Shown: in pieces, positions 23,255-27,399 of the stretch | How the letters are laid out: every line of letters begins with the position of its first letter | Position numbering within the stretch: the first letter of the stretch is position 1 | DNA from: Alphaproteobacteria bacterium | GTDB taxonomy: Bacteria; Pseudomonadota; Alphaproteobacteria; Micavibrionales; Micavibrionaceae | Assembly: GCA_030750865.1 (NCBI GenBank) | Contig: JASMHE010000008.1 | Coordinates: 496,001-560,000, forward strand | Direction of reading: 5' to 3' | Length of the DNA stretch: 64,000 bases | Notes under the pieces: model-generated | The model's input: the letters and a program-made list of their open reading frames with translations, nothing else | The model's database searches: none | Told to the model about the DNA's origin: nothing | Program-made: the position numbers and the translations under genes

Positions 23255-23280
23255 GAAACGGCTGTTTCTTTATTTCTTTT
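23253..23280 (+). terminator. Probable intrinsic terminator after the cysteine synthase-like gene
   Basis: AAGAAAC, loop GGCT, GTTTCTT gives a perfect 7-bp stem overlapping the stop codon, followed by TATTTCTTTTT. It lies between convergent genes only 15 bases apart. The stem is AT-rich, so strength is uncertain. Confidence 0.45.
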
Positions 23281-24223
23281 TCAGCTTTCCGACAACTTTT
23301 GACATGAAGCCGCCACCCGCCTCCGTTTCATCGTCATCTTGCACAGATGGTGCGGCTTGCAGCGCATTGTCTTCATCGTCAACAAGCGACATATCAACGT
23401 CTTTGATCAACGCTTCGAAATCAACCGATTTAAAGTTCATCGTGTTAAGACGGGCAATGATCTCTTGTTCTTGTTTATCAAAATCACCGTCACACCAGCA
23501 AAGCAGACGTGCGATGTAGAAAAAGCGGTTCCGGTCCTGTTGATCTTCAATGCGTGAAAACATCACATCAATTGATTGCGGCGTTTGCATATCGACCAGC
23601 AGCGTATCGCGCTGTTCTTCGGTAAAGGCGACCGTTTCCAGAATATTATTCATGAACGCCTTTTCACTATCCATAACGACGCCATCAGCATGCGCCACTG
23701 AAAAGACCGCGCGCCACATCGCGAGTTCACTTTCCGTGACAGAAGGCATTGTTGTCCGCAAATTCGGGAAAACCGTATGCAGGTATTCTTGTAAACTTTG
23801 CGCTGTGTCGAACCCATCCGGCTTTTCCAGCAACGGCGCAATCACATCCGAATTTTCACTTTTTGCCATTGCGGCCGCAAACGCTTGCCCTCTGCCTGAT
23901 TTTTCGATTTCCGCGGCCAGCTCGCCTCGAATGGCTTCGGCCTGTGCGACCAAATCGCCGCCGTTCCAGTAAAACAGCCGCAGCACTTCACAAAACTTCA
24001 CAAGATCGTCATCGGCAGTCACATGCTGCAAAACACTATGCAACTCGCTCGGGCTCAGGATCTCATCATGAATGATTTTATATTGCTCCGCCGGCATGCC
24101 TTTACGACTCAGCGTTGCTTCAAGTGCAACACGGTCATCCGGTGTCAAATGCTCTGTTATGTGTGCCACTTTCAAAATGGCACGCCACATATTAAAACGA
24201 CTGTCGGAAACTGGAGCTTGCAT
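23270..24223 (-). CDS. Tandem TerB-like domain protein
   Basis: A 317-residue protein made of two related helical units. The first, about residues 11-110, begins MWRAILKVAHITEHLTPDDRVAL and contains LRLFYWNGGDLVAQAEAI. The second, about 165-265, begins MWRAVFSVAHADGVVMDSEKAFM and contains LLCWCDGDFDKQEQEII. The acidic helix pattern matches TerB/TerB-like metal-binding bundles tied to membrane-stress and tellurite-type systems. The acidic tail ends with GGGFMSKVVGKLKKK, an amphipathic basic end that could touch membrane. It has no signal peptide and no ter operon nearby. It is divergent from the BPL_N pair. Confidence 0.65.
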   Translation of the reverse strand: MQAPVSDSRFNMWRAILKVAHITEHLTPDDRVALEATLSRKGMPAEQYKIIHDEILSPSELHSVLQHVTADDDLVKFCEVLRLFYWNGGDLVAQAEAIRGELAAEIEKSGRGQAFAAAMAKSENSDVIAPLLEKPDGFDTAQSLQEYLHTVFPNLRTTMPSVTESELAMWRAVFSVAHADGVVMDSEKAFMNNILETVAFTEEQRDTLLVDMQTPQSIDVMFSRIEDQQDRNRFFYIARLLCWCDGDFDKQEQEIIARLNTMNFKSVDFEALIKDVDMSLVDDEDNALQAAPSVQDDDETEAGGGFMSKVVGKLKKK

Positions 24224-24399: not shown

Positions 24400-25188
24400 A
24401 TGCAAATTTTGATCTATCAGGATTATGTCGAAAATAATCACGTCCTTTTCCGCGCGCTGCAGGATGCCTATCCCGCCGCGCACATTGCCTATTGCGATGC
24501 GGACGACATCAAAGGCGGCATTCTGACAGACAAAACAGATCTTTTCATCATGCCCGGTGGCGCGGACCTTTATTATTGCGAAAAATTGAACGGTACGGGT
24601 AACAGAAAAATCCGTAACTATGTTGAAAATGGCGGACGTTATCTCGGCATCTGTGCCGGCGCTTACTATGGCTGCGCAAATATCGCATGGGCGGAAGATA
24701 CTCCCGAACAGGCCATCACAGGATCGCGCGAACTGGCTTTCTTTCACGGCACAGCCCGCGGCCCCGTGCATCAATTCATAGAAAACGGACAAATTGAAAA
24801 ATCGTGGAAAGGCGCTCCTGCCGTACAATATGACACAGGCACAGCGATGATTGATGCGATCGCACCCTACGCCGCCGGCCCTGTCTTCATCGCAGACAAC
24901 ACAGCACACGTCGATCACGACATCATTGCGCGTTACACAGACCTGCCGGAGGATCAAGATATCGCGGCAGTCCGTTGTACCATCGGCAAAGGCAGTGCTT
25001 TGCTTTGTAGCTTTCATCCCGAGTACAGCGCCGCTTATGCCCGCAAAAAACATTATAAAAACGCGAACAGCTCCCACGCATGGGACAGCGACATTCTGCG
25101 CAAACTGGAACAGGACAACACGAACTGGCTTGCGTTTATTATCAATACAGTGATGGCGGAGGTGCGTTATGACAGACAATACGCCTGA
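24400..25188 (+). CDS. BPL_N-domain (class I glutamine amidotransferase-like) protein, copy 1
   Basis: A 262-residue cytoplasmic protein of the biotin-protein-ligase N-terminal-domain family, with a GATase1-like fold. Residues 1-10 (MQILIYQDYV) start the fold. FIMPGGADLYYCEKL and NYVENGGRYLGICAGAYYG carry the nucleophile-elbow cysteine near residue 90. FFHGTARGPVHQF contains a conserved histidine. No biotin ligase catalytic domain is attached, and the substrate is unknown. The start at 24400 follows AAAGGA. Its 3' end overlaps the paralogue downstream by 20 bases, implying translational coupling. Confidence 0.75.
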   Translation: MQILIYQDYVENNHVLFRALQDAYPAAHIAYCDADDIKGGILTDKTDLFIMPGGADLYYCEKLNGTGNRKIRNYVENGGRYLGICAGAYYGCANIAWAEDTPEQAITGSRELAFFHGTARGPVHQFIENGQIEKSWKGAPAVQYDTGTAMIDAIAPYAAGPVFIADNTAHVDHDIIARYTDLPEDQDIAAVRCTIGKGSALLCSFHPEYSAAYARKKHYKNANSSHAWDSDILRKLEQDNTNWLAFIINTVMAEVRYDRQYA

Positions 25189-26011
25189 GCAAAATCTCAT
25201 CATCCACACAGACCATTTCGTCAGCAGCGGTGAAATTTCACGCACCCTGAAAGACAGCTTCAATAATGTCGCCTTTATCGAAGCATCAGGCGAAGATTTA
25301 AAACGCGGCGGCTTGCTCGACCCGCAAAAAACACTGGCGTATTTCCTACCCGGGATCAGCGGTGATCACAGCCCGTACAACGATCAAATAGGTCCGGCCG
25401 GAAACGCGGAAATACGGCGTTACGTTGAAAATGGCGGCGTGTTTGTCGGCACATGCGCGGGGGCGTATTATGCCTGTGAACATATTGTCTATGACGCGCC
25501 GTGGATTTATCCGGCAAAAACCAACCGTCCGGGCCTGAATTTCTTTAACGCACTGGCACACGGCCCCGTGCGCAGTAATGCCATTCAGGCACAGGACGAT
25601 CAATGGTTCGGTGATTGCAGCGTCATTTCCGTACGCTACAAAGATAAAGACGGCACAGAAAAGCCCGGCGGCATTGCCTATGGCAACGGTCCGGCCTTGA
25701 TCCCGCGCGACCCGAACGACCCCGACCTTGAAATCATTGCGCGCTATGATGACACACCGAATAATGACATCGCGCTGGCTGTGCAACGCGTCGGCAAGGG
25801 GCTGGCCATTTTCATGGGTGTTATCCCCTATATCCGGTATGATGAACAATACGCAGGCAGCCCGTTCCCCAAACTGGCCGCACTCACGGCTGATCTGCAA
25901 AAACACGAAGAAAGTCGCAGCGAGGTATGGTCATTACTGATGGATCGTATTCAGCAACATCATTTTGATCTTGGCACGCTAAACAAAGCTGTGTTAAGAC
26001 ATCAGCCATGA
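25169..26011 (+). CDS. BPL_N-domain (class I glutamine amidotransferase-like) protein, copy 2
   Basis: A 280-residue paralogue of the preceding protein. [15 protein letters not shown] replaces the MPGGAD segment. [20 protein letters not shown] keeps the elbow cysteine near residue 93. [13 protein letters not shown] parallels the histidine segment of copy 1. A GGAGG ribosome site lies inside copy 1. The sequences have clearly diverged, so the duplication is not recent. The ATGA overlap with trmFO ties three genes into one transcript. The product may form a heterodimer with copy 1; that is inference. Confidence 0.72.
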
Positions 26012-27399
26012 CACACACGCCAACAGATACAAAGACAAAACCCCTTCACATCATCGGTGCCGGATTAGCCGGTAGCGAAGCGGCATGGCAAGCAGCCAAT
26101 CTTGGCGTGCCCGTCATTTTACATGAAATGCGTCCGGACCGGAAAACAGATGCGCACCATACAGATTACTGCGCAGAGCTGGTTTGCTCGAATTCGTTCC
26201 GGTCCGACGATGCCGAAAGCAATGCGGTCGGCCTGCTGCACGAAGAAATGCGCCGCTGTAATTCCATCATTATGCGCGAAGGCGCAAAGGCCGCCGTTCC
26301 TGCGGGTAGCGCACTGGCCGTTGATCGGAATGTCTTTTCCGAAGGCGTCACAAAGGCATTGCAGGATCACCCGCTTATCACCGTTGAGCGCGGCGAAATC
26401 AAAGGATTGCCACCTGCCGAGTGGGGGCACACTATTATTGCCACAGGTCCGCTGACATCGGATAATCTGGCAAGCGCTATCAAAGAGCTGACCGGCGAAG
26501 ACGAGCTAGCCTTCTTTGATGCGATTGCGCCTATTATTTACAAGGAAAGCATCAATTTTGATGTGGCGTGGTTCCAGTCCCGCTATGACAAAGAAGGCCC
26601 GAACGGCACAGGCAAAGATTACATCAACTGCCCGATGACCGAACAGCAATATAACGACTTTATCAATGCCTTGCTGGAATCAGATAAAACAGAATTCAAA
26701 GACTGGGAAAAAGATACACCCTATTTCGAAGGCTGCATGCCGATCGAAGTCATGGCAAGCCGCGGACCGGAAACACTGCGTTTTGGCCCGATGAAACCTG
26801 TCGGCCTGACCAACCCGCATGCAGACGAACGCCCTTATGCTGTCGTACAGCTCCGTCAGGACAATACACTCGGCACACTCTATAACATCGTCGGTTTCCA
26901 AACAAAAATGAAATATGGCGCACAAACAGACATATTCCGCATGATCCCCGGACTGGAAAATGCTGAATTTGCGCGTCTTGGCGGCATTCACCGCAATACA
27001 TTCATCAATTCACCAAAATTGCTAGATCAGACATTGCGCCTGAAAGCGCGGCCTGACATCCGCTTTGCAGGGCAAATCACAGGGTGCGAAGGCTATGTCG
27101 AAAGCGCCTCTGTCGGCATTATGGCTGCACGCTTTGCCGTCGCCGAGATGCGCGGCGAAGAGATAGCGCCGCCACCGGCTGAAACGGCGATGGGCAGCCT
27201 GCTGTCACACATCACAGGCGGGGCAAACGCCGACACATTCCAGCCGATGAATATCAATTTCGGCCTCTTCCCACCGCTGGAAGAACGCATCAAGGGCCGC
27301 CGCGGCGAACGCAAAGCCGCGCGCAAAAAAGCCCTGACACGCAGGGCTCTTGACGTTATTGATAATTGGGCAAAGCCTGCAAAGGACGAAGCGGCCTAG
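26008..27399 (+). CDS. trmFO: Methylenetetrahydrofolate--tRNA-(uracil-5-)-methyltransferase TrmFO
   Basis: Flavoenzyme that forms ribothymidine at U54 of tRNA using methylene-THF as carbon donor and FADH2 as reductant. The N-terminal FAD motif is [15 protein letters not shown] near residue 16. [20 protein letters not shown] near residue 60 is highly diagnostic. The C-terminal [15 protein letters not shown] contains a conserved cysteine. The 463-residue length is normal. It overlaps copy 2 of the BPL_N pair at its start and shares a CTAG stop with the convergent 98-residue gene. Confidence 0.96.

Follow-up and report, generated by a model that had tools for sequence, protein, structure and literature searches.

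A tandem pair of freestanding BPL_N proteins in a Micavibrio relative and its possible role in biotin acquisition

Results

Two overlapping BPL_N genes lie upstream of trmFO

The window analysed here, by which we mean the whole stretch of 64,000 nucleotides (positions 496,001 to 560,000 of the forward strand of contig JASMHE010000008.1, assembly GCA_030750865.1), contains two overlapping genes, denoted A and B, that are flanked by a divergent TerB/DUF533-like gene on one side and by trmFO on the other. The features at the locus, in window coordinates, are as follows.

23270-24223, minus strand: TerB/DUF533-like gene, 317 aa, divergent; syntenic bystander
24400-25188, plus strand: gene A, standalone BPL_N protein of 262 aa; class I GATase-like predicted fold, Cys85-His206-Glu208 complete
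24652-24654, plus strand: codon of the nucleophile-elbow Cys85 of A (GICAGAYY)
25015-25023, plus strand: His206-Pro-Glu208 (HPE) of A, remainder of the putative catalytic triad
25169-25188, plus strand: overlap of A and B, 20 bases
25169-26011, plus strand: gene B, diverged BPL_N paralogue of 280 aa; same predicted fold, Cys present, His and Glu gone
25454-25456, plus strand: codon of Cys96 of B (GTCAGAYY), invariant across the B alignment of 24 sequences
25823-25831, plus strand: Ile219-Pro-Tyr221 (IPY) of B, replacing His-x-Glu
26008-27399, plus strand: trmFO, 4-base overlap with B; syntenic bystander

An earlier note on this DNA, made from the letters alone, had described A and B as two GATase1-like BPL_N proteins with the elbow cysteine that overlap each other and trmFO and carry no biotin ligase domain, and our searches bear this out. 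Both proteins exceed the curated cut-off of Pfam BPL_N (PF09825; 24.2 bits), A with 168.9 bits (1.5e-49; residues 28-255 of 262 aligned to the profile) and B with 70.9 bits (1.1e-19; residues 54-261 of 280); GICAGAYY and GTCAGAYY are present, the overlaps measure 20 and 4 bases, and the Pfam search revealed no biotin-ligase domain in either protein. An NCBIfam search of the pair returned zero matches over the cut-off, a sequence search of the PDB gave no more than weak matches, which were to entries of the PdxT type and to a few others that are unrelated, and an initial scan of genome contigs with A alone as the query gave zero matches. The TerB-like gene, described in the same note as tandem and divergent, is divergent, and its Pfam DUF533/TerB match is confined to the second half of the protein; two similar halves can be discerned by eye in its 317 residues, of which the second alone is recognised by Pfam.

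A has a complete Cys-His-Glu triad and B does not

Alignments of 28 sequences for A and 24 for B, each counting the copy of the window, yielded confident AlphaFold models (mean pLDDT 94.1 for A and 93.9 for B). Both predicted folds are like those of PdxT, HisH and other class I glutamine amidotransferases, the best match having Z 19.7 and rmsd 2.5 over 182 for A, and Z 19.4 and rmsd 2.9 over 194 for B; Foldseek comparisons of both proteins agreed. Lower among the fold matches of A was Arabidopsis GGP1 (gamma-glutamyl peptidase 1, a Cys peptidase; Z 16.0, rmsd 3.6 over 212), a same-fold enzyme that cuts gamma-glutamyl bonds. A thus combines the predicted fold with the triad of class I glutamine amidotransferase-like proteins (C85, H206, E208), whereas B, with Cys-Ile-Tyr at the same sites, has the predicted fold without the triad.

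This asymmetry extends to the copies at the loci of the 44 genomes of the order that encode BPL_N (see below), each typed by the higher-scoring of two profiles (A1, A2). Cys-His-Glu is found in 32 of 34 A-type copies, a set that takes in five of a third, weakly scoring type, with one Cys-Asn-Ala copy and one fragment under the Pfam cut-off making up the rest. Among 33 B-type copies, His is gone in 31 and Cys kept in 31, with Cys-His-Glu in one. Outside the order, 69 of 73 BPL_N copies have Cys-His-Glu, and the remaining four include two fragments. The earlier picture of coupled copies that both keep the elbow Cys is hence correct for the Cys, but the two are not equivalent, given the His missing from nearly all B copies.

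The pair recurs in the order, at TerB-trmFO and elsewhere

We surveyed 115 genomes of relatives, with that of the window included, taking E <= 0.001 as a BPL_N match; 81 of these reach 90% completeness with contamination of 5% or less, so that single absences are unsafe. BPL_N was detected in 44 genomes, in 42 of them over the cut-off. A-B pairs occur in 18 (one in the order B-A), B only in 15 and A only in 6, and the other five comprise three with A paired to a third BPL_N type and two with the third type alone. All 21 pairs are spaced by -20 to +20 bases, as measured with script-chosen start codons. Contig ends make two genomes uncertain, since that of G020 lies upstream of B and that of G081 (A only) falls where B could lie. 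Because the pair recurs in relatives, the pairing of A and B goes beyond chance, and a coupled, conserved A-B pair suits two cooperating products. Of the two-subunit enzyme suggested in the earlier note, the coupling is therefore upheld by the 18 A-B pairs, but an obligate partnership, with both genes always together, is contradicted by the 15 B-only and 6 A-only genomes. At the 15 B-only loci, tblastn with 28 A proteins found no remnant of A, matches being limited to the 600-base bins that hold B. No A-B fusion was found either, there being no BPL_N frame longer than 420 aa among 187 hits and just one weak second segment (L170).

Other arrangements were also observed. In three loci of genera g9 and g35 (L036, L040, L054), A is partnered by a different BPL_N type with Cys-His-Glu intact. 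In two A-only genomes (L033:8040-8840 and L035:8200-8925), the place of B between A and trmFO is taken, as judged by eye, by an apparent acetyltransferase whose N-terminus is rich in Lys and Ala.

The adjacency seen in the window could point to a functional module of the pair with TerB and/or trmFO, in stress response or tRNA modification, and the earlier note had proposed co-occurrence as the check. We inspected the mutS region in 20 genomes out of the 41 in the family that lack BPL_N. BPL_N is absent from all 20 regions, and yet TerB and trmFO are both at the locus in 12 of them, with the opposed orientation that they have in the window; besides, many A-B pairs at the loci of BPL_N genomes are sited away from trmFO. 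These 20 relatives largely refute a TerB or trmFO module, which we regard as exceedingly improbable: the TerB-trmFO neighbours are an old syntenic block that the pair moved into or out of.

BPL_N presence tracks the loss of biotin synthesis in the order

The genome of the window encodes BCCP and a BirA, the latter without an N-terminal extension (by eye) and located not beside A and B but elsewhere, between genes read as nuoN and coaX. In this genome no match to BioY was found, and neither bioA nor bioB was detected over the cut-off, one weak bioB hit being read as lipoyl synthase. Biotin is needed in this organism and seems to be neither made nor imported by BioY.

Across the 115 relatives, bioB is present over the cut-off in 2 of the 44 genomes with BPL_N versus 36 of the 71 without (Fisher 1.1e-7), and bioA in 0/44 versus 30/71. 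Within the family of the window (73 genomes), any of bioA, bioB and BioY occurs in 2/32 BPL_N genomes compared to 36/41 others, and the 39 family genomes without bioA and bioB include 30 with BPL_N, four with BioY, none with both and five with neither (G016, G025, G041, G063 and G072, family members that thus lack bioA, bioB, BioY and BPL_N). Genera g35 and g51 each include BPL_N genomes as well as bioB genomes. Tested on a MutS tree with 106 tips, dependent evolution fitted better than independent evolution for BPL_N with bioB (LR 26.0, p 3e-5) and for BPL_N with bioA (LR 21.9, p 2e-4), and parsimony gave 15 changes for BPL_N and 13 for bioB. This tree omits nine of the 115 genomes, namely G013 and G015 (no MutS match), G027, G096, G100, G106, G107, G113 and G114. 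Only two of the 115 genomes combine BPL_N with bioB, and G013 is one of these.

A class-wide sample of 289 genomes, 100 of which have bioB, includes 13 non-order genomes whose BPL_N match exceeds the cut-off, and bioB is absent from all 13; one further genome, G323, has bioB and a BPL_N hit under the cut-off. A universal exclusion between BPL_N and bioB is ruled out by BPL_N-bearing named genomes from beyond the order, of which we analysed 50 of 53 chosen: bioB is present in 31 of the 50, mostly larger proteobacterial genomes (e.g. Vibrio, Marinomonas, Cupriavidus) but including two of the nine counted by name as Alphaproteobacteria, Xaviernesmea (L151) and Sarmatiella (L187). Within the order, BPL_N, bioB and BioY are all absent in 17 of the 18 genomes of family f3 (G074, G080, G086, G089, G092, G095, G098 and G100-G110), and another biotin route must therefore exist.

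As a control we compared thiC, the sole other vitamin pathway considered. It shows the same raw exclusion, being present in 0/44 genomes with BPL_N and 28/71 without (tree LR 15.3, p 0.004), and part of the signal therefore reflects general auxotrophy, which is a confounding factor. In the 87 genomes without thiC, nonetheless, bioB occurs in 2/44 with BPL_N versus 11/43 without (p 0.007; tree LR 18.3, p 0.001), and the tree LR is 35.8 (p 3e-7) for bioB, bioA and BioY combined, the addition of BioY being a choice made after the data were seen. Conversely, among the 75 genomes without bioA and bioB, thiC is found in 0/42 with BPL_N versus 2/33 without (p 0.19).

Relatives outside the order are linked to biotin transport genes

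From 268 stretches encoding relatives we examined the best 80 loci, 24 from the order and 56 outside it. A BioY-like gene is present in 22 of the 80, all 22 among the 56 outside. In Marinomonas ushuaiensis, genes for an ABC ATPase, a CbiQ-type protein and BioY (i.e. BioMNY) precede BPL_N, and in Mannheimia BioY is divergent to BPL_N, both as assigned by Pfam. The order bioM-bioN-bioY-BPL_N appears conserved in Marinomonas, Vibrio, Aliagarivorans and relatives (L132, L134, L136, L138-L140, L142, L144, L145, L148 and L149), as read from ORF clusters with a Pfam check in L136 only. BioY is also the commonest family among 90 near neighbours, a batch from which the gammaproteobacterial BioMNY loci were excluded: it accounts for seven of the 90, counting one (L166) that stands in second position on its side and was knowingly added, and LysR comes next with three among the 25 of 119 families listed. 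Lineages with BPL_N beside BioY are both free-living and host-bound, and comprise Marinomonas, Vibrio, Mannheimia, Chlamydiae and Brevinema.

In a midpoint-rooted protein tree of 146 tips, those left of 187 hits once duplicates were removed, the main clade of A (24 tips, support 0.93) has as its sister a 17-tip group of 14 gammaproteobacterial copies, Xaviernesmea and two copies from the order, and 13 of these 17 are BioY-linked. Of the 37 B-scoring tips, a single clade (support 0.95) unites 29, small neighbouring groups take up seven, and the last is placed in another part of the tree.

BirA-box-like sites were scanned for with a half-site consensus and a simple shuffle as the null. Upstream of BioM, the site was clear in one of 12 regions (L132), marginal in two (L139, L136) and at background in the rest; it was clear in one (L184) of eight other BioY/BPL_N regions, and upstream of A in the window it was at background level. 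Regulation through a BirA box was accordingly not retained.

Discussion

A putative route from bound biotin to BirA

The reading that we favour, with a probability of about 0.45, is that A and B serve biotin acquisition in a Micavibrio relative without biotin-synthesis genes, A being a Cys-His-Glu amidase and B a degenerate copy. Its two parts differ in strength. That A and B have a role in biotin use is probable; amide hydrolysis as the reaction of A is a tentative and somewhat doubtful assignment, and biochemically putative. The organism, which we take to be a relative of Micavibrio, would presumably be predatory like that genus. A would hydrolyse the amide bond of biotinyl-lysine (biocytin), of biotinyl-peptides or of a similar bound form coming from the surroundings or, presumably, from prey, and the freed biotin would then be loaded by the separate class I BirA onto BCCP. 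B would probably bind substrate or product, or would support or stabilise A where both exist, possibly in a complex. The simplest interpretation of A is an amidase that sets biotin free, because the fold and triad fit amide hydrolysis and a biotin user unable to make the vitamin encounters much of it in bound form, as biotinyl-lysine or biotinyl-peptides derived from protein breakdown. B stands alone, mostly without the His, in 15 genomes, 14 of which lack bioB, and so a His-dependent reaction is not the whole story. In these genomes B evidently has a role independent of A, and here the proposed mechanism is at its weakest.

Alternative readings

In part, the distribution of BPL_N could be explained by lifestyle, since dependent lineages shed many vitamin pathways together, and BPL_N might then mark dependence on prey or host with no particular tie to biotin. 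The raw exclusion of thiC is just what this predicts, but the exclusion of biotin genes persists among thiC-negative genomes, that of thiC is not significant once bioA and bioB are both absent, and the linkage to BioY is seen in free-living as well as host-bound lineages, all of which makes the lifestyle explanation quite unlikely. A tie to biotin without hydrolysis would arise if A and B acted in trans on BirA in the manner of the fused N-domain of class III ligases, giving better use of biotin or better recognition of the acceptor under biotin scarcity. Class III BPLs carry BPL_N as their N-terminal domain, a yeast model places that domain by the active site and, in the available text of that study, glutaminase activity was not found (PMC12582158); in addition, the BirA of the window's genome has no such extension, and B can stand alone without a triad. 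We nevertheless consider action in trans unlikely, for Cys-His-Glu is nearly invariant in A-type copies and in those outside the order, which a non-catalytic role would hardly account for, birA lies elsewhere in this genome, and no biotin-ligase family appears among the 25 of 119 families listed for the 90 neighbours.

Catalysis of a different kind is proposed by a two-subunit glutamine amidotransferase, with A as the glutaminase and B as its ammonia-using partner. The coupled genes and the match of A to PdxT and HisH in predicted fold and triad would agree with it. B, however, has a predicted fold that is glutaminase-like rather than that of a synthase, B or A alone is common, and glutaminase activity of yeast Bpl1 was not found, though its authors note, in the portion available, that a partner substrate is often required (PMC12582158). 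Such an enzyme is thus very unlikely.

Relation to known systems

A shares with the N-domain of class III ligases (PF09825, e.g. yeast Bpl1) the Cys...His-x-Glu triad and a GATase-like predicted fold, but A and B are freestanding, lack the ligase domain and are in tandem as triad-bearing and triad-less paralogues, with BirA encoded elsewhere as a class I enzyme. The BPL_N proteins linked to BioMNY or BioY also have an intact triad, and their gammaproteobacterial members fall in the sister group of the main A clade; those, however, are transporter-linked, whereas A is paired with B in a genome that has no BioY to lie beside it. PdxT, HisH and GGP1 resemble A in predicted fold (Z up to 19.7) and triad, and differ from the pair in that identity is at most 20% among the 50 matches listed, no synthase partner was seen at the locus, and B lacks His and Glu. 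The reaction proposed for A, release of biotin from biocytin, would be analogous to that of animal biotinidase, which belongs to the nitrilase superfamily and has a fold unrelated to BPL_N.

As far as the available text of PMC12582158 goes, the triad of the yeast Bpl1 N-domain is C89, H215 and E217, with no definitive function assigned to the domain; the full triad is also present in seven fungal and two further animal ligases, while four other class III ligases compared do not have the complete triad but retain at least His and Glu, and the N-terminal half of the fungal and animal enzymes is required for activity. S. cerevisiae is described as having no characterised biotinidase in the accessible part of PMC4510963. 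BPL_N is not mentioned in the matched text of a paper on Chlamydia BioY (PMC3459881), and among the literature matches listed, in the portions available, standalone BPL_N was not tied to BioY or biotin salvage.

Standalone bacterial BPL_N proteins, whose presence in one order goes with loss of biotin synthesis and whose closest outside relatives are mostly located in biotin-transport operons, give a direct clue to the ligase N-domain. If true, the proposed role is relevant to the as yet unexplained N-domain in the biotin ligases of fungi and animals. The proteins also suggest a way in which bacteria that depend on prey or a host, and that neither make biotin nor encode BioY, could cover their need for this essential vitamin. 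In a broader form, which we find somewhat unlikely, BPL_N would be a biotinidase-type amidase on the GATase fold that strips biotin from foreign biotinylated proteins in predators, endosymbionts and other biotin-dependent bacteria, accompanied in Micavibrio-type bacteria by a pseudo-enzyme partner and captured as a domain by fungal and animal biotin ligases; if true, this would explain the unassigned N-terminal half of those ligases.

More than one BPL_N gene is also found beyond the order. Trichoplax has two, of rickettsial origin according to the available text of PMC7750005. Tandem pairs are present in a Finniella MAG (L179:5824-7804), where the second copy has Gly instead of Cys, and in another member of the class (L111:7296-9067), where both copies have Cys-His-Glu.
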